A DNA stretch of 49,626 nt, from assembly GCF_001897685.1 (NCBI RefSeq), contig NZ_MKUG01000131.1:1-49626 (forward strand). The letters are read 5' to 3'. The position numbers and the translations under genes are program-made. Below the pieces are notes generated by a model. That model had not been told where the DNA came from and searched no databases. It saw nothing but the letters and a program-made list of their open reading frames with translations. Of this stretch, positions 29,972-44,653 are shown one piece after another (position 1 is the first letter of the stretch; each line of letters opens with the position of its first letter). Source of the DNA: Thiobacillus sp. 65-1402 (GTDB lineage Bacteria > Pseudomonadota > Gammaproteobacteria > Burkholderiales > Thiobacillaceae).

Positions 29972-29975
29972 CGTT

Positions 29976-30758
29976 TCACTGCAGCCTGTAAGAAAGAATA
30001 AGCGGCCTGCCCTGACGCTCGCCCACCACGCTGAGGCGCTGCACGCCTGCCGTGCCGGACAATTGCCGCGCGAAATCCTGCATGCTGGCAACCGGCATGC
30101 CATTGACCATGCGCAGCGTGTCGCCGCTCTGCAGGCCCAGCCGCGCCGCCAGCCCGTCGCCGGCCACCGAGGTCAGCAGCAGGCCGGACAGCGGACCGCT
30201 CTCGACGCGCGCCTGCACCCCGAGCCTGCCCGGGTCGGCCAGTGCCTGCTCGAACTCCCGGCGCGTGACCGGCATATCGCCATCGCCCGGCGTGAGCGGC
30301 CGCCCCAGCGCATCCAGGTCGAGGCGTTCACGCACCCCGCGGTTGAGCAGAATCAGGTGGTCGGGCGCGATCGCATCCAGCACCACGCCCGGCACGACCT
30401 CATCGCCGAGAGCGACCGCCCGATCCTGTCCGTCCCCGCCTACAATCGCCATCGCCTTGCCGCCCAATGCGGCAAACACCCCGCGCAACTTCAGGTCAAG
30501 CGCGGTCGCCTGCTCGGCAGGCGCATCCGTCCGCCCCTGCGCCGCGCCAAACAGATGCGCCGCATGCAGCGACGCCAGCGACGCCTCCGGGACGCTGCCG
30601 GCGCCCGCACTGTTTGCCGGCAGCGGCGGCAGCGGCGCGGCAAAGCGCCAGGTCCAGTGCGCCAGCGAGGCGGCCAGCCCCAGCAACAGCAGCAGATTCA
30701 GCGGCGCGCCCAGCCAGGGAATGCGGCGCAATGCGCCTACCAGGGTGTCAAGCGACAT
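29976..30758 (-). CDS. gspC: Type II secretion system protein GspC
   Basis: Inner-membrane protein coupling the platform to the secretin. 260 residues: membrane segment (about 20-38), homology region (DLKLRGVFAALGGKAMAIVGGDG, with GDEVVPGVVLDAIAPDHLIL) and a C-terminal PDZ-like domain (AARLGLQSGDTLRMVNGMPV). ATG at 30758 preferred over a longer frame because it begins at the family N-terminus. First gene of the gspC-N operon; the sigma-54 regulator gene ends 98 bp upstream on the same strand and no terminator is visible between them. Confidence 0.93.
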   Translation of the reverse strand: MSLDTLVGALRRIPWLGAPLNLLLLLGLAASLAHWTWRFAAPLPPLPANSAGAGSVPEASLASLHAAHLFGAAQGRTDAPAEQATALDLKLRGVFAALGGKAMAIVGGDGQDRAVALGDEVVPGVVLDAIAPDHLILLNRGVRERLDLDALGRPLTPGDGDMPVTRREFEQALADPGRLGVQARVESGPLSGLLLTSVAGDGLAARLGLQSGDTLRMVNGMPVASMQDFARQLSGTAGVQRLSVVGERQGRPLILSYRLQ

Positions 30759-30856
30759 CGCGTTCACCCCGGAAACCGCAGCTGGGCGCGCACGCTGCCG
30801 GGCGGCTGCCGCAAACATCGCGGGGCCGGACATGACGCGGGAAATCTTTCACTGCC

Positions 30857-32275
30857 CTACTCCTCAATGCCATAGCGCTTGACCTTGCGCCACAAGGTCG
30901 ATTTGTCGATGCCGAGGATTTCCGCTGCCAGGGCACGGTCGCCGTGCGTCTCGCGCAGGGTCTTGCGGATGAAATAGGCTTCCACCTCGTCCAGGCTTTG
31001 CGGCGGCAGATAGTCGAGGGCGCGGCCGCGCGGATCCTTCTGTTCGGTCAGTCGCGACGGCAGCACGGCGGTGTCGATATGGTCCGCTTCGGCGAGAATG
31101 ATCATGCGCTGAACGATGTTTTCCAGTTCGCGCACATTGCCGGGCCAGTCATAGCGCATCAGCGCGCCGAGCACGGCGGTGCTGACGCCGCCGATGTGCT
31201 TGCCGAGGCGCAGCGTATGCTTGTTCAGCAAGTAGTAGGTCAGGAGGGCGATGTCTTCGCGCCGCTCGCGCAGCGGCGGGACGCTGATCTCCATGACCGA
31301 CAGGCGATAGAACAGGTCTTCGCGGAACTGGCCGGCTTCCACCAGCTCGGGAATCTGCCGGTTGCTGGCGGCGATCACGCGGACGTCGACATGAACCGGT
31401 TCGGTGGCGCCGGTCGGATAGAAGCTGCCATCCTGCAGCACGCGCAGCAGCTTGGCCTGCAGGGCCATCGGCGCATTGTTGATCTCGTCGAGGAACAGGG
31501 TGCCGCCGTCGGCGATCTCGAACAGGCCGGGTTTGTTGCGCTCGGCGCCGGTAAACGAGCCCTTGCGGAAGCCGAACAGCTCGCTTTCAATCAGGTTTTC
31601 CGGGATCGCCGCGCAGTTGATGGCGACGAAGGGCTTGCCGCTGCGCTTGCCGCGCTGATGGATCTGGCGCGCCACCAGTTCCTTGCCGCAGCCGCTTTCG
31701 CCGAAGATCAGCACACTGGAGTCGTAAGCGGCGGCGGCGTCGATCAGACGGTCGACGCGCTCCTTCGCCTGGGATTGGCCGATGATTTCGCCGCTTTCCT
31801 CATAGGCACGGGTTTGCCGGCGCAGGCGCTGATTCTCGGTCGAGATCAGGAAATAATCGAGCGCCTTTTCCACCACGGAGCGCAGCTTGATGGTGTCGAA
31901 CGGTTTCTGGACGTAATCGTAGGCGCCCTCCTTGAGGGCGTCGACGGCCGACTCGACGGTGGCGTAACCGGTAACCAGCACGACCTGGGTCTGCGGATTC
32001 CGCGATTTCACGAACTTGAGCAGTTCAAGGCCATCGGCGCCCGGCATGCGGAGATCGGTGAGAACGACGGCGGCGTCGTTGTTCTCGAGAAAATCCATCG
32101 CCTCGTGCGCATTCTCGGCGCTGGCCACCCTGAAGGCCATCGACGATTCTGCCAGCACGGCAAGGATCAGCTCGCGCATGTTGCGGTCGTCTTCGGTGAC
32201 GAGAATGGTCGGCATGGCGTCGGTCATAGCGGCGTCCTTGCCGTCGTCGCGAAGGACGGGGGCATCCTGTTTCAT
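30857..32275 (-). CDS. NtrC-family sigma-54-dependent response regulator
   Basis: 472 residues. Receiver domain (about 23-135) with acidic pair E28-D29/D30, phospho-acceptor D74 (VLTDLRMPG), T102 and K124. AAA+ domain (about 163-390) with Walker A GESGCGKE (192-199), sigma-54 contact loop GSFTGA (239-244; usual form GAFTGA), Walker [10 protein letters not shown] (D263/E264) and arginine-finger region REDLFYRL. C-terminal Fis-type helix-turn-helix [23 protein letters not shown] at 32275 overlaps the kinase stop (ATGA). With two -24/-12 promoters 3.5 and 9.6 kb away, it is the obvious candidate to activate them. Target assignment is inference. Confidence 0.95.
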
Positions 32276-33765
32276 GATTTTGCACGCTCCAGATCGACTG
32301 CCGGAATCCTGACGGTGAAGCACGCGCCTTCGCCATGCGCGGCATCGTAAGCGATAAAGCCGCCACGTTTCGTGACGATTGCCTGGCTGATGGACAAGCC
32401 GAGCCCGGACCCCTGCCCCACCTCCTTGGTGGAAAAGAACGGGTCGAACAAGCGGTTGCGGATATCCAGCGGCACACCCGGGCCGTTGTCCGCAATGGAG
32501 ATGGCGGCATAGGTGTCTTCCATCCAGGTGCGCACGACGATGCGCGGCGACGGCGTTTTGTCGAGCGCGTCGATGGCATTGACCAGCAGATTGCTCAGGA
32601 CGATATCGAGCTGGCCGCACCCGCCCTCGACAATCAGGAGCCCTGGGCACAGATCCAGCACGATTTCTATACGGTAGCGCTTCAGCCTGCAGTTGATGAA
32701 GGTCTCGATCAGCTCCCGTGCCAGCTGGTTCAGGTCGCAGGTCTCGCCGCTGCACTTGTCCTTGCGCGCGTAGTCGAGCAATTCCTGCACCACATGCGAG
32801 CAGCGCTGCGTCTCGTCGGCGATGATGCGGGCATATCCCGCCAGCTTCGGATGCTCGGCCGCGCCCCGGTCGAGCAGTTGCGCATAGCCGAGGATGTTGC
32901 CGAGAGGAGTATTCAATTCGTGCGCGACGCCCGCCGCCAACTGGCCCATCGCCACCAGCTTCTCACGCGTCGCGACGCTCTCCATCAGCTGCCGGTACTC
33001 GGTGATGTCCTGCAGGATCAGCACGCCACCCATGTCGTTTTCCTCGTCGCTGTAGAAGGCGAGGTTGAGCGAGAAAAAGCGCTTGCCGCCGCCGACGTTG
33101 AGCGCGATTTCCTGATTGCGGATGGCATGCTTGTAAAGAAATGCGTCGCGCAGCAGTTCGCGGTCGCGCTCGTTGATGTCGAGCAGCTCGAACAGGTTCG
33201 CGTCGATCAATCCACCCGGCCGCACGCCGAACAGCGCGTCCGCCTGGCGGTTGGCGATGGTGACGCGCAAATCGTCGGCCAGGCTCAGCAAGGCGCCCGG
33301 CAGGCTCTGCAGAATGGTGTTGCTGCGGTTGCGCTCGTTGAGAAAGCGCCCCTGGCATTCCTCCACGGTCTGAAACATCAGGCGCAGGGTGGCGATCGTG
33401 GTGTTGTATTCCGGGATGAGATGGCCAACGCTGGTCCATGCGTGAGGCTCGACCGGCGTCGGCTCCAGCAGGCCTTCGCGCGCGCGCAGAATGCCAAGCT
33501 CGAGCCGCCTCAGCGCGGCCCGTTCGCCGCGCAGGCGCACCGCCAGATAGGCCAGCACGGCGCCGGACAACCAGAGCAGGTGCGGCTCGTCCCGGAACGG
33601 GCCGAGCAAGGCATACAGCGCGCCGAGCAACAACGCAATCGCGGCCGGCAGCGGGTAGCCGGGAAAGTACGGGATCGAGGGGCGCCGGTTGGCCGTCCCC
33701 CGCAAGCTCAGCGATTTGATGGCGACACCTCTTGGCTGTTTGATCGACGCATCACAAAAAAGCAC
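32272..33765 (-). CDS. PAS-domain sensor histidine kinase
   Basis: Up to 497 residues. Two adjacent membrane segments near 38-55 and 62-77 with only a short loop, so sensing is likely membrane or cytoplasmic. PAS domain about 145-255 (LPGALLSLADDLRVTIANRQ), HisKA H-box AAGVAHELNTPLGNILG (H282), N-box LSNLLVNAIDAL, G1 ADNGPGVP, G2 GQGSGLGLSI. Partner of the downstream NtrC-type regulator by four-base overlap. Start is unsure: the only early start in frame is GTG 33765, whose first base is the last base of the porin terminator stem; TTG 33705 is an alternative, and AGAGG sits seven bases before an ATC at 33720. Confidence 0.93.
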   Translation of the reverse strand: MLFCDASIKQPRGVAIKSLSLRGTANRRPSIPYFPGYPLPAAIALLLGALYALLGPFRDEPHLLWLSGAVLAYLAVRLRGERAALRRLELGILRAREGLLEPTPVEPHAWTSVGHLIPEYNTTIATLRLMFQTVEECQGRFLNERNRSNTILQSLPGALLSLADDLRVTIANRQADALFGVRPGGLIDANLFELLDINERDRELLRDAFLYKHAIRNQEIALNVGGGKRFFSLNLAFYSDEENDMGGVLILQDITEYRQLMESVATREKLVAMGQLAAGVAHELNTPLGNILGYAQLLDRGAAEHPKLAGYARIIADETQRCSHVVQELLDYARKDKCSGETCDLNQLARELIETFINCRLKRYRIEIVLDLCPGLLIVEGGCGQLDIVLSNLLVNAIDALDKTPSPRIVVRTWMEDTYAAISIADNGPGVPLDIRNRLFDPFFSTKEVGQGSGLGLSISQAIVTKRGGFIAYDAAHGEGACFTVRIPAVDLERAKS

Positions 33766-33788
33766 GGCCGCCAGTCACCCGGCGGCCG
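33756..33788 (-). terminator. Rho-independent terminator after the porin gene
   Basis: On the minus strand CGGCCGCC, an eight-base loop, then GGCGGCCG (perfect 8-bp stem, plus-strand 33765-33788), followed after three bases by six Ts (33761-33756). It lies 24 bp past the porin stop and overlaps the proposed GTG start of the histidine kinase, so it would separate or attenuate kinase-regulator expression from the porin operon. Confidence 0.85.
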
Positions 33789-33812
33789 CATATCACGACG
33801 GCGAGGGACCGA

Positions 33813-34982
33813 TCAGAAAATGAACTGCAGCCCGAGCGTAGCCTGATTGTAATCCTGCAGCGCCGGGTTGGTCGGATGCTGGGTATCGAAGGCGATGTCC
33901 GCGTATTCGAAGCTGATCTTCAATCTCTGTCCGTCGAGATAGTAGTTCGCGCCCACGCTGTTCCATTTCTGGTCGTAGTACTCGGCGCCGCCGGTCGTGA
34001 TGCCGTAATCGGACTTTTCGTGGCGCGCGAAGAACTGCAGGCGGCCGGTGCCGACCTTGTTGGGCAGCATGTAGCCGGCCTTGACGTAATAGCCCTTGAG
34101 ATCGGCGCCAATCGGCAGGCTCGGGTCGGGCGACGCGGTATTGGTGGCGCCGCCGGTGTCGTATTTGAAGCTCGCGCCGGACAGCGTATAGACCCCGCTC
34201 GTGGTCGGATATTCCATGAACGCGTCCACGGTCCAGGCCTTGTAATCCTTGATGTCGCTGCGCGCCAGATAGTTGCCGTAGACAACGTCTTTCTGCATGT
34301 CGTAGCCGGCGCCGATGGTCAGCACCTTTTTCGTTCCCAGATAGGTTCCCAGGTAGCCATAGCTGAATTCCGGCTCCCAGAAGCTGTAATGCACGCGGCC
34401 CGTCAGACGGGGATTGTCCTTGGCCACGTCGTTGCCTTCGCGGCCGTCGGCGATCATGAAGCGATACTGGAACTTGGCATCCATCAGGTTGCCCCAGATC
34501 GCCAGGCCGGTGTCGCGGCTGCCGCCGAACGGCGTGTAGGCAAGCGCTTCCGCACGGTCCAGCGTCAGCGGCTCAAGGCACGCCTCCAGGTTCTCCCGCG
34601 AGAAGGTGTTCTTGAAACGGCCGACAATGAAGCGCAGGTCGTCGCGGTAGTCCAGCGTCACATACGCATCGCGGTAATAGACGCTCTTGTCGTCGTTGCC
34701 GAGCTTGCTGTCGTTGCCGGCCTCGATCTGGGCATAAAACCCCACGAAGTCGTTGTACTGGCCGGAAAAGGTCAGGCGGTTGCGGCGCAAAAAGGCGTCG
34801 TTCGACGAGCCGTTATCGGTTGCCGAGGTGAACCCCTTGTGCTGCAGCCAGCCTTGCAGGGCATAGGTAAAGGTAAGCGAACCCTGCTCGCCGAACTCGA
34901 TAGTGGGGCCGGCAACCGCGCTCAGCGGCAGCAAACCGGCGAGGAGACCAACCGCACGGGCGCGGGACAGTGAAAGTTTCAT
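33813..34982 (-). CDS. Outer-membrane porin of the cytochrome locus (ExtI-like candidate)
   Basis: 389 residues: signal peptide (1-24, …PLSAVA-GP), then alternating beta-strand sequence rich in aromatic residues and a terminal phenylalanine (TLGLQFIF), typical of outer-membrane barrels. Strand-like stretches include DDLRFIVGRFKNTFSRENL and RLKISFEYADIAF, as in phosphate-selective (OprP/OprO-type) porins. ATG at 34982 lies one base after the triheme cytochrome stop. Sitting with multihaem cytochromes and a rhodanese lipoprotein, it resembles the porin of Geobacter ext operons (ExtI) recalled from the literature; conduit function is inference, and a plain anion porin remains possible. Confidence 0.85.
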   Translation of the reverse strand: MKLSLSRARAVGLLAGLLPLSAVAGPTIEFGEQGSLTFTYALQGWLQHKGFTSATDNGSSNDAFLRRNRLTFSGQYNDFVGFYAQIEAGNDSKLGNDDKSVYYRDAYVTLDYRDDLRFIVGRFKNTFSRENLEACLEPLTLDRAEALAYTPFGGSRDTGLAIWGNLMDAKFQYRFMIADGREGNDVAKDNPRLTGRVHYSFWEPEFSYGYLGTYLGTKKVLTIGAGYDMQKDVVYGNYLARSDIKDYKAWTVDAFMEYPTTSGVYTLSGASFKYDTGGATNTASPDPSLPIGADLKGYYVKAGYMLPNKVGTGRLQFFARHEKSDYGITTGGAEYYDQKWNSVGANYYLDGQRLKISFEYADIAFDTQHPTNPALQDYNQATLGLQFIF

Positions 34983-34983
34983 A

Positions 34984-35487
34984 TTATTTCGCTCCAGGAA
35001 TGGTGTGGTAAGCGCCCTGCACCTTGGCAAGATCGCCCTTGTGGCAGCTGCCGCAGGCGTCAGCCGTGTTGTCGCGAGGCTTGGCGAGCATCTTCGCGTG
35101 CGCCACCTCCTCCTTCATGATGCGCGAGTTCCCCTTGTGGCAGCCCACGCACGAGTTGTTCACCTTGGAATGCTGCGCATGCCAGGGCGCCTTGGCGGCA
35201 TCCATCTCCGGCGCAGCGGCGCGCTTGCCGTTATGGCACTTGAAGCAGCTCGACGCCCCCAGGCCGCAGGCATTGGCGAGCGCAATCGGCGACAGTTGCG
35301 CCACCCCCTCCGCCAGCGCCACCGTTGCCTCACCGCCCCAGCCCGCGGCCACTTGCCCGGCCGAGTCTTCAGCGTGCCGGCCGGCCAGACTGGCGAGCAT
35401 TGCGACCCCCAGACCCAGCAGCGAGAGCATGACACCGCCGCGCCAGATTTTCCCCAACAGACCACCCCTACCTTGGTTGCGCTTCAT
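34984..35487 (-). CDS. Triheme c-type cytochrome, membrane-anchored
   Basis: 167 residues. N-terminal hydrophobic segment (about 15-35) that could be an uncleaved anchor or signal. Three CxxCH haem sites: CFKCH (81-85), CVGCH (113-117), CGSCH (145-149), with extra histidines (HAQHSK, EVAHAKM, AYHTIPG) able to be distal ligands. ATG at 35487 is set by AGGAG eight bases upstream and removes a non-family extension. It overlaps the end of the CxC protein gene by 20 bp and is one base from the porin gene. Probably moves electrons in the periplasm to or from the porin complex (inference); needs the ccm system. Confidence 0.92.
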   Translation of the reverse strand: MKRNQGRGGLLGKIWRGGVMLSLLGLGVAMLASLAGRHAEDSAGQVAAGWGGEATVALAEGVAQLSPIALANACGLGASSCFKCHNGKRAAAPEMDAAKAPWHAQHSKVNNSCVGCHKGNSRIMKEEVAHAKMLAKPRDNTADACGSCHKGDLAKVQGAYHTIPGAK

Positions 35488-35740
35488 CTTCCCTTCTCCT
35501 TTGCTCGTCACGCGTTGCGGGAAGCCCGTCCAGCCCATCCAGACGGACACCTTCCGACTGCTTAAACCGGGCGGCCCATGCCTTGCTTATCTCCGCCTCG
35601 CTCGTGCCCGTGGCACACGTACACGCCAGCGCCTTGCCGCGGTACTTGAGCCTGGGCTGCCCCGGCTCGGCCGCATCGATGGCCGGTGCCGCCAGCAGCA
35701 GGGCAAGGGCCATCGCAGTGACTACGCCAGTTGGTCGCAT
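35468..35740 (-). CDS. Small secreted CxC-motif protein
   Basis: 90 residues with a signal peptide (MRPTGVVTAMALALLLAAPAIDA) and a mature part starting AEPGQPRLKYRGKALACTCATG, holding one CxC pair, then SEAEISKAWAARFKQSEG and a charged tail. Not a haem site. I do not recognise the family with certainty; position in a porin/multihaem operon suggests an ExtJ-like role. Start at ATG 35740 is chosen because the predicted sigma-54 start site is about 35771, which leaves only seven bases before ATG 35764. First gene of the operon. The CxC could bind metal, selenium or sulfur species (inference). Confidence 0.72.
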   Translation of the reverse strand: MRPTGVVTAMALALLLAAPAIDAAEPGQPRLKYRGKALACTCATGTSEAEISKAWAARFKQSEGVRLDGLDGLPATRDEQRRREDEAQPR

Positions 35741-35781
35741 GGGTTTCCGGTCCCCTTTCGTCATATCGACACCCAAACTTA

Positions 35782-35797
35782 AGCACGTATCGTGCCT
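35782..35797 (-). promoter_or_regulatory. Sigma-54 (-24/-12) promoter of the CxC-cytochrome-porin operon
   Basis: Minus strand AGGCACG-ATAC-GTGCT fits TGGCACG-N4-TTGCT with the invariant GG and GC at correct spacing. Predicted start about 35771. It shares nearly the same sequence with the site at 41908-41923, including the following TTAA. It is also a short inverted repeat (GCACG-N3-CGTGC), so a protein-binding site is an alternative reading. Confidence 0.75.
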
Positions 35798-35900
35798 GTG
35801 TTGATTATTCTTTTATAACAAGATCTTACAAAAAACTGCCCTGCCGATCCGATTGCACAGCAAGCGGAACAAACCGCAATCTTTCAAATTGCAATCGCAC

Positions 35901-35929
35901 GGGGCCAGCGCCGGGCTGCAGCCGGCCCC
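35901..35929. other. Hairpin in the 295-bp gap between pentahaem and CxC genes
   Basis: GGGGCC (35901-35906) pairs with GGCCCC (35924-35929), enclosing the perfect palindrome GGCTGCAGCC (35914-35923). No T run follows on either strand. It lies 130-160 bp upstream of the predicted start of the CxC operon, so it could be an activator region or an mRNA 3' structure of the cytochrome gene. Nearby are three GCAATC/GATTGC hexamers (35851, 35876, 35891). Nothing else is recognised in this gap. Confidence 0.35.
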
Positions 35930-36035
35930 CGCTGCCACCGCTCCGGCACGCCGCAACGGGGACGCTCATTCCGAAGGCGCCGCCGCCGTTGCCAGGGCAG
36001 GCCAACCCCAGCGAACAACGATGCAAGGGCCATGC

Positions 36036-37259
36036 TCAAGGCTCCGCCCCGACCTCGAGGCGCAACAGCTCATAGCGCGTTGCCACGGCCTCGTCGAGCG
36101 CGCGCCGCAACAGCGGCAGCGCCGCTGCCGGCAACTGGTCGGCGCGCCCCAGCGCATCGCGGTAGATGCGCTCGTAATGCTCGGCCGGCAGCACCCGCAC
36201 GACCAGTTCCACGCGCCAGTCGCCGCCCGCTGCGTTGAAGGGCTGCCGGAAATCGCGCGCTTCCCCGGCGGCAATGCGGGTATCGGACAGCTCCTGCGTG
36301 ATCGGCGTGTCGACGTTCCAGCCGATGACGTGGCGCCCCAGTTCGACGCTGCCGCCATCGACATCGCGGCGGTAAAACGCAAGCTCGACCTTGGGCACCA
36401 TGTAGGTCGGGAAATGGTGGCCGGCACCGCGGTTGCGGACGTTCGCCCGCGCCTCGTAGCGGCCGCCGCCGAGCGCTTGCAGTTTCAGCGACACCTCGAT
36501 CGCGCGCCGCGTCATTTCGGGGTCGTGAATGCCGCGCCAGCGATGCTGGCGATCCGGCATGTGGCAAGACTGGCAGGTCTGCTTGCCGGCCCCCTCCTTG
36601 GCATACGGGCCGGCAAGCCATTGCCGGTAGGTGTCTTCCAGCAATTTGCCGGCGATGCGCGGGCCGCTGTCCGGAAACTGGTGGCAATGCGCGCAGAAGC
36701 GGCTGTCCTGGAAGGCCTCGGCCACCACGAAGCCGCCATGCGGGCCGTCCTTGACCGCCTCGTTGCGCGGCGGCGGACCGAAGCGCCGGTGCCCGCGCAC
36801 GTGGCAGGCGGCGCACACCAGGCCCTGATGCCCCAGGTCGGAGGGGACGAAATCCGGCGGCGGCTGCTTCGGCGCGTTCGGCCAGCCATGCTCCAGCGCC
36901 AACAGCGCCTTCTGTTCGGCCAGCGGCGTATGGCAGCGCAGGCAGCGGTTGCCCTGCTCCTGGTCCATCAGCATCAGCTGCCAGCGCAAGCCGGGGCCCA
37001 TCGCTTTGCTGTGCAGGCTGGTGCGCCAGGCCGCGTACTGCTCGGCGTGGCATTGCCCGCAGGCCTGCGGATCCAGCGACGCCTCCAGCGGCGAGAACGC
37101 CGCCGGAGGCGTGCCCTGCGGCGGCATCGGCTCGGCCCAGTGGCGTTGCAGAAAAGCCTCGGCCGCAGCCTCCGGCTTGTTCCCGCAGCCCGCCAGCAGC
37201 GCGAGCGCGCAGGCCGCCAGCAGCCGCAGCGGACCCGCATGCGAAGTGAACTTCAACAT
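36036..37259 (-). CDS. Pentahaem c-type cytochrome lipoprotein
   Basis: 407 residues. Lipoprotein signal with lipobox LLAGC (C25), then five CxxCH haem sites: CGQCH (67-71), CLRCH (106-110), CAACH (149-153), CAHCH (189-193), CQSCH (229-233). The last 170 residues have no haem and look beta-rich (RYEARANVRNRGAGHHFPT, KVELAFYRRDVDG). Similar architecture, recalled from cytochrome lipoproteins of ext-type and other extracellular electron-transfer clusters. ATG at 37259 with AGTCAGGG upstream. It begins 14 bp after the T run of a terminator that follows the rhodanese gene, so it may depend on read-through or its own promoter. Confidence 0.93.
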   Translation of the reverse strand: MLKFTSHAGPLRLLAACALALLAGCGNKPEAAAEAFLQRHWAEPMPPQGTPPAAFSPLEASLDPQACGQCHAEQYAAWRTSLHSKAMGPGLRWQLMLMDQEQGNRCLRCHTPLAEQKALLALEHGWPNAPKQPPPDFVPSDLGHQGLVCAACHVRGHRRFGPPPRNEAVKDGPHGGFVVAEAFQDSRFCAHCHQFPDSGPRIAGKLLEDTYRQWLAGPYAKEGAGKQTCQSCHMPDRQHRWRGIHDPEMTRRAIEVSLKLQALGGGRYEARANVRNRGAGHHFPTYMVPKVELAFYRRDVDGGSVELGRHVIGWNVDTPITQELSDTRIAAGEARDFRQPFNAAGGDWRVELVVRVLPAEHYERIYRDALGRADQLPAAALPLLRRALDEAVATRYELLRLEVGAEP

Positions 37260-37272
37260 CCCTGACTCCATG

Positions 37273-37299
37273 AAAAAAGCCCACGAGAGTATCGTGGGC
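37273..37299 (-). terminator. Rho-independent terminator or attenuator between rhodanese and pentahaem genes
   Basis: On the minus strand GCCCACGA, loop TACTC, TCGTGGGC (perfect 8-bp stem, plus-strand 37279-37299) followed directly by six Ts (37278-37273). It lies 33 bp past the rhodanese stop and only 14 bp before the next start codon on the same strand, the position expected of an intra-operon attenuator. Confidence 0.85.
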
Positions 37300-37331
37300 C
37301 AGAGGAGGAGTAGCAATAGTTCAGACGCTTG

Positions 37332-38828
37332 TCAGCCGCCGCACGGGTTCGCTGCCGGCGCACGCGTTCCGGCGGTCGGAATGGTCTCGCCGTACTTGTA
37401 GGCCTTGTCGGCGTTGACGATGGCATTGGCCGAATTGGCGTACGCGTCGGTGATGTAGCGCTGGGCCACCAGCGTGTTGCTGGTTGCGGCGCGGTAGAAG
37501 GACTTCACGTCGGTGCGCCACGGCGAATTGTCCGGCAGGATCGCGTTGCCCGTCGCATCGGTCATGACGCTGCCGCCGGTCAGCGAGTTCCATTCCACCA
37601 TCGCGCCGTCGTAGAAACGGGTCGGCTTGCCGAGGATGACTCCGCTGGCCACGCCGGTGATCATCGCACGGAAAGTCGTCTCGCAATAGGCGTAGACGGT
37701 GTCGCCGTCCTGGTAGGCGTTGCCGGCCCCGACCAGCGTATAGTCGGCGCCGACGAATCCAACGCCCTGGGCGTTGGTGCCGCCTGCCAGCAGCGCGGCC
37801 AGTTCCGCCTTGGGCCGGTAGGCGAAGCCCTTGGTGGAGTCGAGCATGTGCGTGTACTGGAGCTGCAGCGTGCCCCACGGGTGCCCCTGGCGCGAGCCGC
37901 TGTTCTGGAAGGTCCACATGTAGTTGGCCGGGTTGAGCGGCACGCAGTATGCGGTCGCACACGCCTGAGTGCCGGCGAGATCGGAATTGGTGTCCTCGCC
38001 GAGTTCAACCATTTCGCCGGCGCTGTACTGGCCGAGGCTGCGCGCATCCCAGATGAAGACGCCGTCGTTCTTCACGTTGCTGTCGCCCGACGGAACCACC
38101 GCGGCCAGCAGATCCTGCACCGTGGCCTGCAGCTGGGTGTTGTCGACCAGCAGGTCCTTGACCGAGGCGTGGCCGGTGTTGGGCGCCACGCTCGCAGCTA
38201 CCTGGAAGTCGCCAGCAGCCATGCCGTTGCCGTTGATCCACTGGTTGCCGCCGTTGAGGATGGCCAGGTTCTTCTTGTCCACGCCCCAGTAGCGCAGCGC
38301 ATACCAGATGCGGCCCTGCGCCATCGCATTGCTGGTGCTGCCGGTGCCCATGGCGGCGACGATCATGTCATTCTGCGGATCGATGTTGAATTTCTTCAGC
38401 AGCGCGTCCATGCTGGTGCCGTCCGGCACCATGCTGGGCGTTTCGATCACGCCGTTGCTGCGCGTCTGGATCCAGTCGCTCGACGGCGACAGATAGGTGA
38501 ACACGTTGGTCCCGTTCGGCTTGATGTATTCGGCGCCCGCCGGGCCCGCCGAAGCCTGCAGGATGATCAGCTTGCCGGTAACCCCCGCCGGACGGTTGGC
38601 GAGCCAGTTGTCCTTCCAGCTTTTCAGCGTCGCTGCGGTGATCAGGCCGTTGACGTTGTTGTCGTAATTATCGTCCGACACCTGGGCGATCGCCGCCGGC
38701 GTATTGACCGGGATATTCTTCACCGGGGCGGTCGTATCCTCGCCGCCTCCCCCGCCGCAACCCTGCAGGCTCAACACCAAGGTCAGCGCCGCCAGGCCGC
38801 TCCATCCCCTATTCATCTGCTTGTTCAT
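37332..38828 (-). CDS. Rhodanese-domain lipoprotein (ExtH-like candidate)
   Basis: 498 residues. Lipobox LSLQGC (C24) followed by a glycine-rich linker, so anchored in a membrane. Two rhodanese-like halves: the first (about 60-235) has MGTGSTSNAMAQGRIWYALR where the catalytic loop should be and no cysteine; the second (about 250-470) has FIWDARSLGQYSAGEM and the loop VYAYCETTFRAM with candidate persulfide cysteine C382. C290/C295 may form a disulfide. ATG at 38828 is fixed by GGAGG with a seven-base spacer. Moves sulfane sulfur or selenium outside the cytoplasm (inference). Its position beside multihaem cytochromes and a porin matches Geobacter ext loci. Confidence 0.85.
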   Translation of the reverse strand: MNKQMNRGWSGLAALTLVLSLQGCGGGGGEDTTAPVKNIPVNTPAAIAQVSDDNYDNNVNGLITAATLKSWKDNWLANRPAGVTGKLIILQASAGPAGAEYIKPNGTNVFTYLSPSSDWIQTRSNGVIETPSMVPDGTSMDALLKKFNIDPQNDMIVAAMGTGSTSNAMAQGRIWYALRYWGVDKKNLAILNGGNQWINGNGMAAGDFQVAASVAPNTGHASVKDLLVDNTQLQATVQDLLAAVVPSGDSNVKNDGVFIWDARSLGQYSAGEMVELGEDTNSDLAGTQACATAYCVPLNPANYMWTFQNSGSRQGHPWGTLQLQYTHMLDSTKGFAYRPKAELAALLAGGTNAQGVGFVGADYTLVGAGNAYQDGDTVYAYCETTFRAMITGVASGVILGKPTRFYDGAMVEWNSLTGGSVMTDATGNAILPDNSPWRTDVKSFYRAATSNTLVAQRYITDAYANSANAIVNADKAYKYGETIPTAGTRAPAANPCGG

Positions 38829-38856
38829 CCAGAATCCTCCATCCATTTTCAAGCCC

Positions 38857-38882
38857 GCGCCAGCCTTGCCAGTTGGCAAGGC
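38857..38882 (-). promoter_or_regulatory. Possible third -24/-12 site with perfect palindrome before the rhodanese gene
   Basis: A perfect 9-bp inverted repeat with a two-base centre (GCCTTGCCA-AC-TGGCAAGGC, 38863-38882). Its right half starts TGGCAAG-GCTG-GCGC (38871-38857), which keeps GG and GC at sigma-54 spacing but has a poor -12 box. A start near 38845 would give a 17-base leader containing the GGAGG of the rhodanese gene. The palindrome could equally be an operator. Confidence 0.35.
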
Positions 38883-38979
38883 GACGCACCCATAGCGGCC
38901 GGCCCGCTGGAGACACGTGAAAACCCGGCCCCAGTCATGCGCGACCTCTACCGCGACCATGGCCGCGGGCAAAACACTT

Positions 38980-39165
38980 TCAATCCAGCGGCGCTTTCAG
39001 CACCACCGGCATCCAGTCCTGTTGCAGCGCATCGAGCAATGCGCCGTAATCGTCCACGTTCATTTCCCGCACTTGCGCACCGGCGGCGCGCAAGGCTTCG
39101 GCCAGGCCCGGCATCGCCGGCGCCGCCGCGGGATTGACCAGCAAAACCCGTTTTCCCGTGCTCAT
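38980..39165 (-). CDS. Small unknown protein at the end of the TusA-YeeE-DsrE operon
   Basis: 61 residues, start MSTGKRVLLVNPAAAP, alpha/beta look with one hydrophobic strand and a helix (GLAEALRAAGAQVREMN), no cysteine. I do not recognise it. ATG at 39165 overlaps the preceding stop by four bases (ATGA), which strongly supports real, coupled expression. It resembles only the first part of a DsrE- or Rossmann-like fold, so it may be a reduced relative. Confidence 0.6.
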   Translation of the reverse strand: MSTGKRVLLVNPAAAPAMPGLAEALRAAGAQVREMNVDDYGALLDALQQDWMPVVLKAPLD

Positions 39166-39422
39166 ACGCAATACACCACATCGTTGTCGATGATCTGCCG
39201 CGCCAGCGTCGCCAGCGCGTCCTCTCCGCGGTCGAGTTCGGCCACCGGCACGTCGGCGAACTCGAGCGCCTCCATCTGTTCGGCCACCTCGCTCCCCCCC
39301 GGGAGCCTGCCCCATGCGGCGATGGCGACCGCGTCGTCCAGCAGGGTCAGCCCGCTGGCCATGCGCAGCGCCTCGGCCGGCTTCTGCACCGCCACCATCA
39401 GAATGCGTTTTTGATCTGCCAT
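39162..39422 (-). CDS. Small DsrE/DsrF-like protein
   Basis: 86 residues beginning MADQKRILMVAVQKPAEALRMASGLTLLDD, with a fold pattern like the small DsrE/F/H family (strand, helix, GLTLLDDAVAIAAWG) and an ending DNDVVYCV that holds its only cysteine, C85. Sulfur-carrier function is possible but rests on neighbours. Nine bases after the DsrE-like gene; overlaps the 61-residue ORF by four bases. Confidence 0.65.
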   Translation of the reverse strand: MADQKRILMVAVQKPAEALRMASGLTLLDDAVAIAAWGRLPGGSEVAEQMEALEFADVPVAELDRGEDALATLARQIIDNDVVYCV

Positions 39423-39431
39423 GTCGCGTCC

Positions 39432-39743
39432 TCAGAAAACCAGAACCTTGTCGCACTTCTTCACCAGTTCGGCATCCTGGTACTGGCCGCCGACGACGAC
39501 GAAGTCGGCGAGCGAATTCAGGTCGAAGCGTCCCTCGGCATAGCGCTCGGCGCTGTGTTCGCACAGCGCGACGCTGTTCGGGCGCGCCCGGGCGCGCCCA
39601 ACGAAGCCGACGTCGGCGAGCAGGTTGACGCCGGTGTCGGTGAGGAAGCACTGCGGGTCCCAGCCGCGCGCGATCGCGGCGTCGAGCAGGCCGTTGGCGT
39701 GCACGAGGTAGCGCTCGTCGGTGATGACTATGCCCAGCTGCAT
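39432..39743 (-). CDS. DsrE-family sulfur relay protein
   Basis: 103 residues: start MQLGIVITDERYLVHANGLLDAAIARG, FLTDTGVNLL, and cysteines C32 (DPQCFLTDTG), C61 (VALCEHSAE) and C97 (VKKCDKVLVF). The arrangement matches DsrE/TusD-type proteins that accept persulfide sulfur from TusA. ATG at 39743, three bases past the TusA stop. Works in the cytoplasm, probably with the adjacent TusA proteins and the YeeE permease (inference). Confidence 0.8.
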   Translation of the reverse strand: MQLGIVITDERYLVHANGLLDAAIARGWDPQCFLTDTGVNLLADVGFVGRARARPNSVALCEHSAERYAEGRFDLNSLADFVVVGGQYQDAELVKKCDKVLVF

Positions 39744-39746
39744 CGC

Positions 39747-39998
39747 TCAGGCCTTCCTGATCTTCCAGACGAAGGAGCCGCCGGCGTCCTGCCGATCGAT
39801 GAGGTCGCTGCCCTCGGCTTCGCACATCGCCATGATCGACTCGCCCGACGAGGGGTTGTCGAATATCAGCGACAGCACGTCGCCGCTCTCGATCTTCTGC
39901 AGCGCCTTCTTGGTGTACATCTGTGGGTGCGGGCAGGTGTAGCCGCACACGTTCAGCTCCCATTCGTGGTCGCCGGTCTTGTTGAAACTCATGGCCAT
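39747..39998 (-). CDS. TusA-family sulfur carrier protein
   Basis: 83 residues with the TusA signature WELNVCGYTCPHPQMYTKKAL; the CPxP motif is C22-P-H-P, and C18 is a second cysteine. Remaining pattern LSLIFDNPSSGESIMAM is typical. Carries persulfide sulfur (or selenium in related YedF proteins) between enzymes. ATG at 39998 has AAGGAG eight bases upstream; an ATG two codons later is possible. 47 bp after the yeeE-type gene. Confidence 0.92.
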   Translation of the reverse strand: MAMSFNKTGDHEWELNVCGYTCPHPQMYTKKALQKIESGDVLSLIFDNPSSGESIMAMCEAEGSDLIDRQDAGGSFVWKIRKA

Positions 39999-40045
39999 GG
40001 GGTTTGCTCCTTAATCCAGTGTGTCGAAAATCCGTGGGCGCGCCC

Positions 40046-41497
40046 TTACAGGCCGCACTCCGATCCCTTGCGGGCGGTGCTCCAGTCCATCCACCAGGTG
40101 AACACCTTGACGCCGATGTAGGCGCCTATCGTCATGCCGATCAGGAAGACCCAGCCGCTGGGGTCGCCGTTGGTCACGGTGGCGAAGAAGGCGCCGATGT
40201 TGCAGCCCATCGCCAGGCGTGCGCCGATGCCCATCAGCGTGCCGCCGACGATGGCAAAGAAGGCGGTTTCCCAGCTCGGCAGTTTCCATTTGAATTCGCG
40301 GCGGGAGAGCGCCATGATGGCGGCGCCGAGAATGATGCCGATCGACATGAAGCCGGGCGCGTTCAAGAGCGGGTTCGGCAGGCCGTTGTCGAGGCCGAAG
40401 AAGATGCTGTCCATGCTGTCGATGCCGAGCTTCTGCATGATCCAGCCACCCCACTGCGCCTCCTGGGTGGTGATGTACCAGTAGCCCGGGTCGAACACGG
40501 TGTCCTGGATCGACAGGCCGCTGGTGTAGCCCATCGCCACCAGCAGTTCGCCGAAGTTGAAGATGCCGTAGTGCTCGCGCAGCGCGCCGGTCACGTACAT
40601 GTGCAGGCCGGCGAGGATGCCGAGGCCAATGCCGGCCAGGGCGGTATTCTTGGATGACGTGCACATGGCCCACATGCCCGCCAGTTCGTCGCGCAGCGAC
40701 GGGCTGGCCTTGCCGGAACGGCGCAGGTAGCCCTTGCGGTAGTAGAGGACATACAGCGCGACCAGGATGATCATGACCGGCAGGATCGCGGTCAGCAGCG
40801 TGTTGGCCAGGATGATGCCGCGAGCGGTCTCGGCCATGCCCAGCACCTCGGCCATGGTGGTGCCCTTGAGGCCCCAGATGTAGCCGGCGGTGAAGATGTC
40901 GAACCAGCCCTGCGTGATCGTCAGCTCGGCCGGCATGTCCTGGGCCGCGGCAGCGTCAAGCCACGACTGCGGCACCAGCGCATCCCACCAGCCGCTGGCG
41001 CTGACGACGATGGCCTGCGAGAAGGAGATGGCGAGGATCACCAGCATCGAGTTCATGTTGCCCTCGCCCGCCTTGTAGAGCGAGCCGGACGCACAGCCGC
41101 CGGTGAAGACGATGCCGAAGCCGAAGATCGCGGCGCCGATGACGATGTGCCAGCCCATCGCGTTGGGATGGAAGGTGCTGAAGCCGGCCAGGGAAACAAC
41201 GGCGGCCACGACCGCATACAGCGCCACCGCGATCATCACGCCGACCGCCATGCGCGGCACCTTCACCGCAAACAGGTCGCGCACCGCCGACGCCATGCAG
41301 AAGCGGCCGTATTGCAGCAGAGCGCCGTAGGCGAGGCCGAACCAGACATAAACCAGCAGGTAGGCAAAGCGCGTGTCCTGCGCCAGCGCCCACAGCGAGC
41401 CAAGGGCAACGAACAGGAAAACCCCCATCGCCTGCACGCTGCTCTTGCGGAGCAGCCAGTGCGTTTCGGTTGCGATACTCGTCGACGCTACATTCAC
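40046..41497 (-). CDS. YeeE/YedE-family sulfur-compound permease
   Basis: 483 residues, about ten or more membrane segments. Conserved cysteines sit where YeeE (TsuA) thiosulfate-uptake proteins have them: GRFCMASAVRDLF (C67), FTGGCASGSLYKAGEG (C135) and ARLAMGCNIGAFF (C432). It is longer than the about 350-residue E. coli protein. Start is GTG 41497, fixed by AGGAG with a seven-base spacer. Flanked by TusA-like genes on both sides, as in tsuAB pairs. Substrate is inferred as thiosulfate or another sulfur/selenium oxyanion; the related YedE is linked to selenium. Confidence 0.9.
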   Translation of the reverse strand: MNVASTSIATETHWLLRKSSVQAMGVFLFVALGSLWALAQDTRFAYLLVYVWFGLAYGALLQYGRFCMASAVRDLFAVKVPRMAVGVMIAVALYAVVAAVVSLAGFSTFHPNAMGWHIVIGAAIFGFGIVFTGGCASGSLYKAGEGNMNSMLVILAISFSQAIVVSASGWWDALVPQSWLDAAAAQDMPAELTITQGWFDIFTAGYIWGLKGTTMAEVLGMAETARGIILANTLLTAILPVMIILVALYVLYYRKGYLRRSGKASPSLRDELAGMWAMCTSSKNTALAGIGLGILAGLHMYVTGALREHYGIFNFGELLVAMGYTSGLSIQDTVFDPGYWYITTQEAQWGGWIMQKLGIDSMDSIFFGLDNGLPNPLLNAPGFMSIGIILGAAIMALSRREFKWKLPSWETAFFAIVGGTLMGIGARLAMGCNIGAFFATVTNGDPSGWVFLIGMTIGAYIGVKVFTWWMDWSTARKGSECGL

Positions 41498-41548
41498 TCA
41501 CACTCTCCTCAGTCAAACCGACGGCCCCGGCAGGCCGCCCGACAATGT

Positions 41549-41881
41549 CTACAAACCCTTGCGCAGGTAAACCCGCCAGCAACCGGACTCCCGCACCGCG
41601 GCGAGATGCGTGCAGCCAAGCGTCTGCGCCAATGCAGGAAACCCCTCGACTGCCGTGGGGTTGTCAAGCACCACTTCGACGACCTCCCCCGGCCCGACTT
41701 CGCTCAACACCTTCATGGTCAGCAACTGCGGCCGCGGGCACATGGCCCCCAGGCAATCGACCGCATGCACCACATGCACACGCCCCAAGCCGGGAACATC
41801 GACGTCCTTGACGACCGGGCTGCTCGTGCCGGCTGGCCGGTCATGAAACAGATCGAGCAAACTGGCAACGTGCACACCCAT
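41549..41881 (-). CDS. TusA-like protein with N-terminal extension
   Basis: Up to 110 residues: about 35 N-terminal residues of unknown role, then the TusA core VDCLGAMCPRPQLLTMKVLSEV with CPxP motif (C48-P-R-P, plus C43) and VVLDNPTAVEG. Two more cysteines near the end (LGCTHLAAVRESGCW) are unusual. ATG 41881 is directly against GGAGG; GTG 41875 is six bases from it and may be the true start. Both fit a transcript start near 41897. First gene of the sulfur operon. Confidence 0.88.
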   Translation of the reverse strand: MGVHVASLLDLFHDRPAGTSSPVVKDVDVPGLGRVHVVHAVDCLGAMCPRPQLLTMKVLSEVGPGEVVEVVLDNPTAVEGFPALAQTLGCTHLAAVRESGCWRVYLRKGL

Positions 41882-41907: not shown

Positions 41908-41923
41908 AGCACGTTGCGTGCCA
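41908..41923 (-). promoter_or_regulatory. Sigma-54 (-24/-12) promoter of the TusA-YeeE-DsrE operon
   Basis: Minus strand TGGCACG-CAAC-GTGCT, a one-mismatch fit to TGGCACG-N4-TTGCT with GG and GC at the required spacing. Predicted start about 41897, giving a 16- to 22-base leader. Thirteen of 16 bases equal those of the site at 35782-35797. An A/T-rich stretch lies just upstream of both (AAAGGAAAAATCAA and AAAGAATAATCAA). Confidence 0.82.
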
Positions 41924-42011: not shown

Positions 42012-42045
42012 GACACGGGTGTCTTTTGCAACAGACAAAATTGTC
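42012..42045. promoter_or_regulatory. Two similar inverted repeats, likely upstream activator sites
   Basis: GACAC-GG-GTGTC (42012-42023) and GACAA-AA-TTGTC (42034-42045). Both are perfect 5-bp arms with a two-base centre, and the centres are 22 bp apart (two helical turns). They lie about 120 and 142 bp upstream of the predicted start at 41897, the usual place for NtrC-type activators. No equivalent pair is seen before the promoter at 35782. Confidence 0.5.
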
Positions 42046-42316: not shown

Positions 42317-44653
42317 TCAGACGGCCAGCCGCCGCCAGGTCGCCACCACCGTATCCGGATTGAGCGAAATCGAGCCGATCCCGGCGGCCACCAGCCAGTC
42401 GGCCAGATCGGGGTGATCGCTCGGGCCCTGGCCGCAGATGCCGATGTATTTGCCGTGGCGCTTGCAGGCGGCAATGGCCTCGGCCAGCAGCTTCTTCACC
42501 GCCGGGTTGCGTTCGTCGAAGCCTTCGGCCACCAGCCCGGAATCGCGGTCGATGCCGAGCGTGAGCTGGGTGAGGTCGTTGCTGCCGATGGAGAAGCCGT
42601 CGACGTACCGCAGGAAATCGTCGGCCAGCAGCACGTTGGAGGGAATCTCGCACATCATGATCAGGCGCAGGCCGTTGTCGCCGCGCGCGAGGCCGTTGGC
42701 CGCCAGCAGGTCGACCACCGCCGCGCATTCCTCGACGGTGCGCACGAAAGGGATCATCGCCTCGACGTTGGCGAAGCCGAGCGTTTCGCGCACCTTCTTC
42801 AGCGCGCGGCATTCCAGCTCGAACGCCGGACGGAACAACGCCGACACATAGCGCGCCGCGCCGCGCAGCCCGAGCATGGGGTTCTCTTCCTTCGGCTCGT
42901 AACGCTCGCCGCCGACGAGATTCGCATACTCGTTGGACTTGAAGTCGCTCAATCGCACGATCACCGGCTGCGGCCAGAACGCCGCCGCCAGCGTGGCGAT
43001 GCCCTCGGCCAGCTTGTCGACGTAGAACGACACCGGGTCGGCGTAGCCCGCTGTGCGCCGCTCGATTTCGTCGCGCACCTCCGGCGTCTGGCCGGCAGGG
43101 TCGAGCAGGGCCAGCGGGTGCACGCCGATGGTGCGCGCGATGATGAACTCCAGGCGCGCGAGGCCGATGCCGTGGTTCGGGATCTGCGCGAACTCGAAGG
43201 CGCGCTCCGGATTGCCGACGTTCATCATCAGCTTCACCGGCGGCTCGGGCAGCGCCTCGTTCGCCAGCGCCTCGACCGTGAACGGCAGCCTGCCCGCGTA
43301 CACGTAGCCGGTGTCGCCCTCGGCGCACGACACCGTCACCGTCTCGCCATCCTGCAGCACCGCGGTCGCCTCGCCGGTGCCCACCACCGCGGGGATGCCC
43401 AGTTCGCGCGCCACGATCGCGGCATGGCAGGTGCGGCCGCCGCGGTTGGTGACGATCGCCGCGGCCCGCTTCATCACCGGCTCCCAGTCGGGGTCGGTCA
43501 TGTCGCTCACCAGCACATCGCCCGGCTGCACGCGGTCCATTTCCGCCGGGCTGGCGATCACCCGCACCACGCCGGTGCCGATTTTCTGGCCGATGGCGCG
43601 GCCGCTGATACGCACCTCGCCGGCGGCTTCCAGCGCATAGCGCTCGCCGCCGCTTTTCTCGCGCGCCTTCACCGTTTCCGGCCGCGCCTGCACGATGAAG
43701 AGTTCGCCGGTCTCGCCATCCTTGGCCCACTCGACGTCCATCGGCCGGGCATAGTGGCGTTCGATCTGCATCGCCTGGCGCGCCAGCTCCAGCACTTCGG
43801 CGTCGCTCAGCGCGAACTGCCGGCGCAGTCCCGGCGGGGTCTCCTCGACCGCGGTGGCGCCGTCGCGCCACACCATGCGGATGGCCTTTTCGCCCAGTTC
43901 GCGCCGCACCACGGCGGGGAAGCCCTGCGCCAGCATCGGCTTGTGCACGTAGAACTCGTCCGGGTTGACCGACCCTTGCACCACGGTTTCGCCCAGCCCG
44001 TAGGCGGCGGTGATGAACACCACGTCGCGAAACCCGGATTCGGTGTCGAGCGTGAACAGCACCCCGGCCGCGGCGAGGTCCGAGCGCACCATGCGCTGCA
44101 CCCCGGCCGACAGCGCCACCTCGGCATGGTCGAAGCCGTGATGCACGCGGTAGGCAATGGCGCGGTCGTTGTAGAGCGAGGCGAACACCTTTTTCACGTG
44201 CGCCAGCAGCGCGTCTTCGCCGCGCACGTGCAGATAGGTTTCCTGCTGGCCGGCGAACGAGGCGTCGGGCAGGTCCTCGGCGGTGGCCGACGAGCGCACC
44301 GCCACCGATACCGCATCGCCGAGAGCCGCATAGGCGGCGCGCAGGCCGCTTTCCAGCGCCGGCTGCAGGCTGGCCGCTTCCACCCAGGCGCGGATCTCCG
44401 CGCCGGCCGCGGCCAGCGCCGTCACGTCCGCCACGTCGAGCGCCGCCAGCCGCGCATGGATGCGCGCGCGCAAATCGTTATGATCGAGAAAATCCCAGAA
44501 CGCCTGGGCCGTGCTGGCAAAGCCGCCCGGCACCTTGACCCCCGCTCCCGCCAGATGGCGGATCATTTCGCCGAGCGAGGCATTCTTGCCGCCCACGCGC
44601 GGCACATCCGCGATCGACAAGGCATCCAGCGGCACAATATAGTCAGCAGACAT
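42317..44653 (-). CDS. ppsA: Phosphoenolpyruvate synthase
   Basis: Converts pyruvate and ATP to phosphoenolpyruvate, AMP and phosphate (gluconeogenesis). 778 residues: N-terminal ATP-grasp domain ([31 protein letters not shown]), phosphohistidine domain with [15 protein letters not shown], where H410 is the catalytic histidine and T408 the residue targeted by PpsR, and a C-terminal PEP-binding TIM barrel ([17 protein letters not shown]). ATG at 44653 with GGAG eight bases upstream; this site overlaps the divergent ppsR start codon region. Length normal. Confidence 0.97.

Follow-up and report, generated by a model that had tools for sequence, protein, structure and literature searches.

What does an outer-membrane porin do when it is encoded beside a rhodanese lipoprotein and two multihaem cytochromes c in a sulfur-oxidising bacterium? 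To our knowledge, the entry of sulfur across the outer membrane of such bacteria is still poorly understood. We analysed a locus of this kind in Thiobacillus sp. 65-1402 (Thiobacillaceae), on contig NZ_MKUG01000131.1 (C131); the 49,626 nt analysed, called the window here, are the whole contig, part of a 3.1-Mb genome in 222 contigs with a contamination estimate of 9%. A sequence-only reading of the window had grouped five genes at positions 33813-38828 (a porin, trihaem and pentahaem cytochromes, a small secreted CxC protein and a rhodanese lipoprotein) and had likened them to the Geobacter extHIJKL set, as an outer-membrane electron conduit that might also pass on sulfane sulfur or selenium. 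All five genes are indeed present on the minus strand, with open and intact reading frames, and they are the outer half of a collinear run of 13 minus-strand genes (30857-41881): Chp2-Chp1-DsrE-TusA-YedE-TusA extend the run upstream to 41881, and NtrB and NtrC downstream to 30857. Our best reading of this block, held tentatively and at a little less than even confidence, is that it takes up zero-valent sulfur across the outer membrane to the cytoplasm under NtrBC/sigma-54 control. That reading builds on what the sequences and models show directly: linked genes, invariant cysteines, the folds predicted, promoter-like sites kept among relatives, and co-occurrence with dsrA. In block order, the 13 genes are:

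41549..41881, minus strand: TusA1, an N-terminally extended TusA (110 aa) with C48; Pfam TusA, 61.3 bits
40046..41497, minus strand: YedE/YeeE-family inner-membrane sulfur transporter with C67, C135 and C432; Pfam Sulf_transp, 160 bits
39747..39998, minus strand: TusA2 sulfur carrier with C22; Pfam TusA, 62.3 bits
39432..39743, minus strand: DsrE-like protein (YTD, or DsrEFH type II by synteny) with C61; synteny, invariant cysteine, co-occurrence with ExtI
39162..39422, minus strand: Chp1, in the DsrF-like position of the YTD cluster; synteny, 49/57 evaluable loci
38980..39165, minus strand: Chp2, in the DsrH-like position of the YTD cluster; synteny, tblastn in 28/57 evaluable loci, small and divergent
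37332..38828, minus strand: ExtH-like tandem-rhodanese lipoprotein; lipobox C24, active-site C382, NPCGG tail with C496
36036..37259, minus strand: pentahaem cytochrome c, ExtKL-like, with a lipobox-like signal in the window copy; five CxxCH
35468..35764, minus strand: small secreted protein with an RLKYR...CxC motif (C48, C50); motif conservation
34984..35487, minus strand: trihaem cytochrome c with an extra non-haem C74 (ANACGxGA[ST]SCxxCH); three CxxCH
33813..34982, minus strand: ExtI porin; NCBIfam ExtI, AlphaFold2 (AF2) model, Foldseek, invariant C135
32272..33765, minus strand: NtrB-like PAS sensor histidine kinase, start codon uncertain; Pfam HisKA, HATPase_c, PAS
30857..32227, minus strand: NtrC-like sigma-54-dependent response regulator; Pfam Response_reg, Sigma54_activat, HTH_8

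Conservation of the block

Loci were collected through ExtI, so the linkage described here is conditional on ExtI; the reverse search was made with DsrE within the family. ExtI scores above cut-off in 21/117 family genomes, and the search with DsrE finds the same 21; ExtI and DsrE lie on separate contigs in G116 and G039. Sixteen of the 20 other family loci match all 13 genes in order, and the remaining four are cut by contig ends. Nine of 369 genomes sampled from the class, our own included, have ExtI above cut-off; the eight others represent eight families, six showing the block and two being contig-cut. Within those six loci, Chp2 and often the CxC gene fall below tblastn detection. A phylum sample of 398 genomes (own included) gave ExtI at E<=1e-40 in our own genome only. 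The named loci (the best 80 of 92 relatives) extend the range to Gallionellaceae, Thiohalobacter, Thiogranum, Burkholderiaceae and others; the closest is Thiobacillus sp. 63-78 (ExtI identity 90%).

Family loci recur among the named contigs. Unique sequences were used for the 57-locus counts below and for the counts of cysteines, sigma-54-like sites, TTGCAA boxes, ExtH tails and 69 pentahaem proteins; the named-locus gene-order survey, the haem counts over 100 and 97 loci and the neighbour counts over 108 loci include duplicates. Among 84 non-redundant loci, 57 are evaluable and 27 are too contig-cut. All 57 contain ExtH, the two cytochromes, YedE and a TusA alongside ExtI, and DsrE, Chp1, NtrB and NtrC are each found in 49 (presence counts for TusA1 include cross-matches to TusA2). 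Eight core-only loci, from Solimonas, Cellvibrio mixtus, Hydrocarboniphaga, Rubrivivax gelatinosus and similar bacteria, are without DsrE, Chp and NtrBC and have the order ExtH-trihaem-ExtI-YedE-TusA-pentahaem; in L167, ExtH is followed by TusA and then by the trihaem gene. The YTD part (YedE-TusA-DsrE-Chp) is inverted in six loci (L118, L121, L122, L124, L130 and L162). Because the same gene set survives such rearrangement, we argue that the core has a joint function; the five-gene grouping is not a matter of chance either, since relatives repeat the gene order at every point that their contigs cover. A few copies seem frameshifted (ExtH in L039 and L047), and two porin loci below the ExtI cut-off (L089 and L090, where mostly a single flank of the porin can be seen) showed no other block genes.

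The ExtI porin

The window porin is a member of ExtI, with 342.5 bits against NCBIfam model NF040900 (curated cut-off 150) over residues 10-389. Its AF2 model, made with 29 sequences, has a mean predicted local distance difference test score (pLDDT) of 79, a predicted template modelling score (pTM) of 0.78 and 16 long strands; the top Foldseek matches are OprP (E 4e-14, template modelling scores 0.65/0.61), OprO and OmpF-type porins. C135 is invariant in 78/78 unique sequences and sits in a long loop between strands 5 and 6 of the model, which we take to be the constriction loop by analogy with general porins, whose L3 lies there. A cysteine occupies this position in 0/30 related porins scoring below cut-off, these controls being the below-cut-off matches with loci returned, a subset of all such matches.

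If the locus were an outer-membrane electron conduit, porin and cytochromes would shuttle electrons between the periplasm and an acceptor or donor outside the cell. The encoding of a porin together with two multihaem cytochromes suits this idea, as does a match of the pentahaem protein to the MtrC/MtrF domain, barely above the Pfam cut-off (32.3 against 30 bits). The barrel does not suit it: an MtrCAB/Pcc-type conduit has a wide barrel, whereas ExtI has 16 strands in an OprP/OprO/OmpF-like arrangement, narrower than MtrB-type sheaths with their 26 strands. Therefore the model makes an electron conduit unlikely, and it fits a solute channel rather than a cytochrome sheath. Moreover, no outer-surface multihaem cytochrome is evident in the cluster, and the conserved partners are sulfurtransferases and YeeE/YedE. 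We consider a conduit very improbable, and that part of the sequence-only reading is not supported. A porin modelling as an ordinary phosphate porin had been named in advance as an outcome that would tell against that reading; on fold, ExtI goes half of the way towards it, and against calling it ordinary stands the invariant cysteine that the 30 related porins lack.

The tandem-rhodanese lipoprotein ExtH

ExtH had been described as a rhodanese with one cysteine-less and one cysteine-bearing half, correctly so: the first domain has no cysteine and the second carries C382 (CETTFR). Its model has a tandem-rhodanese fold, with bovine thiosulfate sulfurtransferase as the best Foldseek match (8q5z, E 1e-11; also 1e0c, E 1.2e-11); the Pfam rhodanese score is under cut-off (18.2 against 22.2 bits). 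The NCBIfam ExtH model (NF040901, cut-off 200) gives 106.1 bits (E 2e-30), and 96.8 and 129.6 bits for two relatives. Judged by these scores, the window protein is homologous to ExtH and not an equivalog.

The sequence-only reading had missed a second cysteine, at the C-terminus. C382 and C496 are each invariant in 66/66 unique sequences; the Gly-rich tail has a cysteine within its last five residues in all 66, as NPCG(G) in 61. The core of the structure model is mostly above pLDDT 90, and the tail (residues 484-498) is below 50 and predicted to be disordered. The NCBIfam model match stops where the tail starts, with window residue 475 aligned to position 428 of the 430 in the model; Geobacter ExtH may therefore lack the tail.

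In SoxY, a C-terminal GGCGG is the sulfur-carrying site (PMC6067878), and it has been described as conceivable that sulfur moves from the cysteine there along three channel cysteines of SoxT1, a YeeE-like protein (PMC11582611). ExtH is not a SoxY, having NPCGG on a tandem-rhodanese fold versus GGCGG on the SoxY protein. By analogy, however, its tail is an arm like that of SoxY, and ExtH with YedE repeats features of SoxY and SoxT1: in each case the proposed sulfur donor is a C-terminal Gly-Cys-Gly carrier arm, and the recipient is a transporter of the YeeE family that has three channel cysteines. Unlike SoxYZ-SoxT1, the carrier here is a tandem-rhodanese lipoprotein, and a porin and cytochromes are included. 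As a separate observation, a 272-aa protein that by eye reads like a rhodanese is encoded beside the core-only cluster of Cellvibrio mixtus (L147:5940-6758, minus strand).

The cytochromes and the CxC protein

The haem counts of three and five given earlier are accurate and conserved, with three CxxCH at 100/100 loci and five in 69/69 unique full-length pentahaem proteins (91/97 loci if contig-cut and interrupted copies and duplicates are counted). C74 of the trihaem cytochrome is invariant in 77/77 unique sequences. The pentahaem protein falls outside ExtKL (NCBIfam NF040886, 54.4 bits, E 7.5e-15, against a cut-off of 250), and just 31/69 copies have a lipobox-like signal. The CxC motif is present at 70/75 loci, with C48 and C50 both kept in 44/44 aligned unique sequences; the protein has no convincing NCBIfam or Pfam family match and five relatives have none in NCBIfam, the existence of an ExtJ model there being unchecked.

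Selenocysteine read-through of the pentahaem TGA is rejected. The stop is TGA at 60/68 loci and TAA or TAG at 8/68. The read-through peptides (25 of the 60 TGA cases, compared by eye) have lengths of 3-50 and share only a short start encoded by a TTGCAA element. Many pentahaem proteins (L033, L034, L036 and other loci) end in IAN-stop, and the conserved TTGCAAATTGA element seemingly overlaps the gene end. The idea that the trihaem cytochrome, which resembles DsrJ, is that protein was dropped rather than disproved: its model matched itself (E 1.4e-68) and two weak places in its own genome (E 0.0056 and 0.12), and DsrJ itself was not located.

The YedE-TusA-DsrE half and the Dsr pathway

Invariant cysteines recur in the other half of the block: C67, C135 and C432 of YedE in 64/64 unique sequences, C48 of TusA1 and C22 of TusA2 in 67/67 each (some TusA1 rows may be TusA2 cross-matches), and C61 of DsrE in 60/60. 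None was found in Chp1 or Chp2. Haem cysteines aside, every part of the block save Chp1, Chp2 and the pentahaem cytochrome has one, the two regulators being outside this count. YedE and TusA belong to the families of the YTD cluster (Sulf_transp 160 bits, TusA 62 bits). DsrE and the Chp proteins have no convincing match among Pfam and NCBIfam models; by synteny, DsrE-Chp1-Chp2 would be DsrEFH type II, an assignment drawing on order, size and a single invariant cysteine.

dsrA is above cut-off in 12/12 sampled DsrE-bearing genomes and in 0/8 core-only genomes, so DsrE and Chp go together with the Dsr pathway. The 20 genomes were chosen by hand (all eight core-only ones and 12 of the other 72 loci), and the contrast is not independent, as a single clade holds seven of the core-only ExtIs and the tree does not contain the eighth row; in seven of the eight core-only genomes the dsrA model finds weak matches (E about 1e-10 to 1e-12) that lie far under cut-off. 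The sulfur-oxidiser setting assumed for the window is supported by two dsrA matches above cut-off in its genome (contigs C178 and C179), one at a contig edge. Some relatives, such as G052 and G053, have three dsrA matches.

Uptake of thiosulfate or another soluble sulfur oxyanion would use many of these parts, with ExtI as an anion porin, ExtH as thiosulfate sulfurtransferase, YedE as importer and TusA as cytoplasmic partner. The top fold matches of ExtI (the phosphate porin OprP) and ExtH (bovine thiosulfate sulfurtransferase) favour this, as do the Sulf_transp match of YedE, its TsuA-family similarity (112 bits, under the cut-off of 400) and the presence of the core in genomes without dsrA above cut-off. 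It does not account for the CxC protein, the C-terminal cysteine arm of ExtH or the presence of two conserved cytochromes; we know of no requirement for such partners in thiosulfate uptake by E. coli YeeE/YeeD. Thiosulfate uptake seems to us unlikely, though it is one of the two main rivals of sulfur uptake.

Alternatively, the locus could reduce selenite or tellurite as in Geobacter, with ExtI admitting the oxyanion, the cytochromes reducing it, and ExtH and TusA/YedE handling Se(0) or selenide. A Geobacter extI mutant is impaired in both reductions (PMC5877670), the window porin is an equivalog match, and the closest YedE model carries a selenium label. Set against this are the DsrE linkage, the co-occurrence with dsrA, and the finding that 0 of 10 scanned window proteins reach the cut-off of ExtM, ExtN, ExtO or ExtS. 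selD is above cut-off in 104/117 family genomes and, being near universal, is uninformative within the family; it is found in 7/20 sampled block genomes and 1/8 core-only genomes, evidence against a role in providing SelD with selenium in most of them, though not against selenite reduction. We regard selenite or tellurite reduction, the other main rival, as slightly less likely again than thiosulfate uptake.

Promoter-like sites and regulators

Regulation had been said to differ from that of Geobacter extHIJKL, which has a LysR regulator (PMC6148476), and it does: NtrBC takes that place here, together with sigma-54-like sites. The signals in the window are:

41908..41923, minus strand: candidate sigma-54 promoter TGGCACGCAACGTGCT upstream of TusA1, 11/12 consensus positions
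42026..42031, minus strand: TTGCAA box upstream of the first sigma-54 site, candidate NtrC enhancer
35782..35797, minus strand: candidate second sigma-54 promoter AGGCACGATACGTGCT upstream of CxC-trihaem-ExtI, 10/12 positions
35889..35894, minus strand: TTGCAA box upstream of the second sigma-54 site
37278..37300, minus strand: terminator-like hairpin between ExtH and the pentahaem gene

Sites scoring at least 10 of 12 occur upstream of TusA1 at 43/66 loci (0.8 in shuffled sequence), upstream of the trihaem gene, with CxC between, at 49/75 (0.6 shuffled), and upstream of ExtH at 16/67 (0.2 shuffled); upstream of the pentahaem gene there were none (0/69). A TTGCAA box lies within 200 nt upstream of the TusA1 site at 35/41 site-bearing loci (1.4 shuffled) and of the second site at 49/49 (1.8 shuffled), the shuffles preserving mononucleotide composition only. 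Within the window alone, the sigma-54 match is not significant (1 against 0.81 expected), so the case for these sites is one of positional conservation. Taken with the NtrC gene next to the other block genes, these sites look like a self-contained circuit in which NtrC would bind TTGCAA.

The hairpin at 37278-37300 would divide the run between ExtH and the pentahaem gene, and a second terminator-like hairpin follows ExtI (33763-33790). The number of terminator-like sites in the region, 5 against 5.6 expected, is not significant.

A proposed route for sulfur entry

We propose the following route for sulfur uptake by the block; the substrate, the direction and order of transfer, the cytochrome roles and control by NtrC are what we infer. 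The substrate would be sulfane sulfur, most likely polysulfide or material mobilised from extracellular elemental sulfur, let in by ExtI through a pore whose constriction loop holds one cysteine. The rhodanese cysteine of ExtH would be loaded with sulfur, which would then be carried on the flexible C-terminal Cys-Gly-Gly arm in the manner of SoxY. The CxC protein and the two cytochromes c could set the thiol redox state, by reducing S-S bonds or removing electrons. In YedE, sulfur may move along the three channel cysteines to TusA, and from there, as protein-bound persulfide, to a complex of DsrE, Chp1 and Chp2 and on into reverse Dsr; relatives without Dsr would use this core only as far as TusA. 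The sulfane-sulfur transfer suggested by the sequence-only reading thus gains support by inference. A complete persulfide relay from the surface to Dsr, comprising a cysteine porin, the swinging arm of ExtH, a cytochrome with a sulfur-binding cysteine, the CxC redox protein, YedE, TusA and DsrEFH type II, is a more specific claim, possible but doubtful in our view.

Several points weigh against sulfur uptake. The invariant cysteines could equally form disulfides or bind metal, and residues 133-136 of ExtI, around C135, have pLDDT <50. Two cytochromes within an uptake system remain unexplained. The equation of DsrE-Chp1-Chp2 with DsrEFH type II draws on synteny and one cysteine, and a canonical DsrE is also present in the window genome. 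dsrA is above cut-off in 94/117 family genomes versus the block in only 21/117. Among NCBIfam models, YedE comes closest to one for selenium (YedE/FdhT, 156.6 bits, under its cut-off of 350), and YedE is divergent in the class locus L088 and in L145. The contig-cut L084 has no NtrBC despite 12 kb of downstream sequence. The known phenotype of Geobacter ExtI concerns selenite and tellurite, with none known for sulfur. Lastly, RS05145 of Desulfurivibrio dismutans, by its numbering presumably the YeeE nearest to that species' porin, was undetected in the proteome (PMC12142623).

If the complete relay to Dsr is right, the block would give a first full definition of how elemental sulfur or polysulfide enters through the outer membrane, and bacteria that lack Dsr would be reusing its portable core. 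From the way these genes stand together, conserved and under shared regulation, we take it that the Geobacter 'selenite' porin may be part of a family that imports sulfur or chalcogens. Residues that can be tested are ExtI C135, ExtH C382 and C496, trihaem C74 and the CxC pair.

Relation to known systems

The literature searched yielded no description of the 13-gene unit, its cysteine series or its regulation, and nothing relevant pairing ExtI with TusA or the YTD gene cluster with a porin. Kinship with Geobacter extHIJKL, in which ExtH is a lipoprotein (PMC6148476), stands for ExtI at equivalog level and for ExtH and the pentahaem protein as homology; it does not extend to membership of ExtH and ExtKL, both under the curated cut-offs. 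As in G. sulfurreducens, the same-equivalog ExtI occurs with a rhodanese-family lipoprotein, a pentahaem cytochrome and a small periplasmic protein. Compared by models and descriptions, the window differs in gene order, in having an extra trihaem cytochrome with an additional cysteine and a linked YedE-TusA-DsrE-Chp part, and in having no conserved selenocysteine read-through at the pentahaem stop. ExtI homologues have been listed in sulfur bacteria including Desulfurivibrio, Desulfocapsa and Thiohalobacter (PMC5877670).

The YTD cluster has been proposed as a marker of sulfur disproportionation (PMC13293266, PMC13047784, PMC9751629, PMC12998232). Its proteins in cable bacteria are DsrEFH type II, already reported in some Pseudomonadota, and TusA persulfurates DsrE Cys67 in vitro (PMC13293266). 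Among the strains of PMC12998232, the complete cluster is reported solely in Desulfobacterota and Nitrospirota. The window shares the yedE-tusA-dsrE-chp1-chp2 order and the conserved cysteines of TusA and DsrE, the DsrE and Chp proteins being likened by order and size; unlike the YTD cluster, it is joined to a porin, rhodanese and cytochrome set with its own NtrBC, in a genome with a canonical DsrE as well. The words porin, cytochrome and rhodanese were not found in the main text of PMC13293266.

In D. dismutans, the porin RS05170 is co-localised with rhodanese-type lipoprotein sulfurtransferases and YeeE/YedE, and its authors suggested outer-membrane polysulfide import (PMC12142623); that idea is therefore not new. 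Porin, rhodanese-type lipoproteins and YeeE/YedE occur together in both cases. Compared by description, the account of D. dismutans concerns one genome, in passing, and its section on sulfur does not name, together with the porin, cytochromes, a CxC protein, DsrE/Chp or regulators.

Neighbouring genes

Directly after the NtrC gene lie GspE, GspD and GspC (type II secretion; 26388-30833). GspD matches occur near the block in 23/108 loci, chiefly Thiobacillus-like ones and the distant gammaproteobacterial L137. Upstream of the block is a phosphoenolpyruvate synthase-like gene (PPDK_N, PEP-utilizers; 42317-44653), with a match in 14/108 loci.

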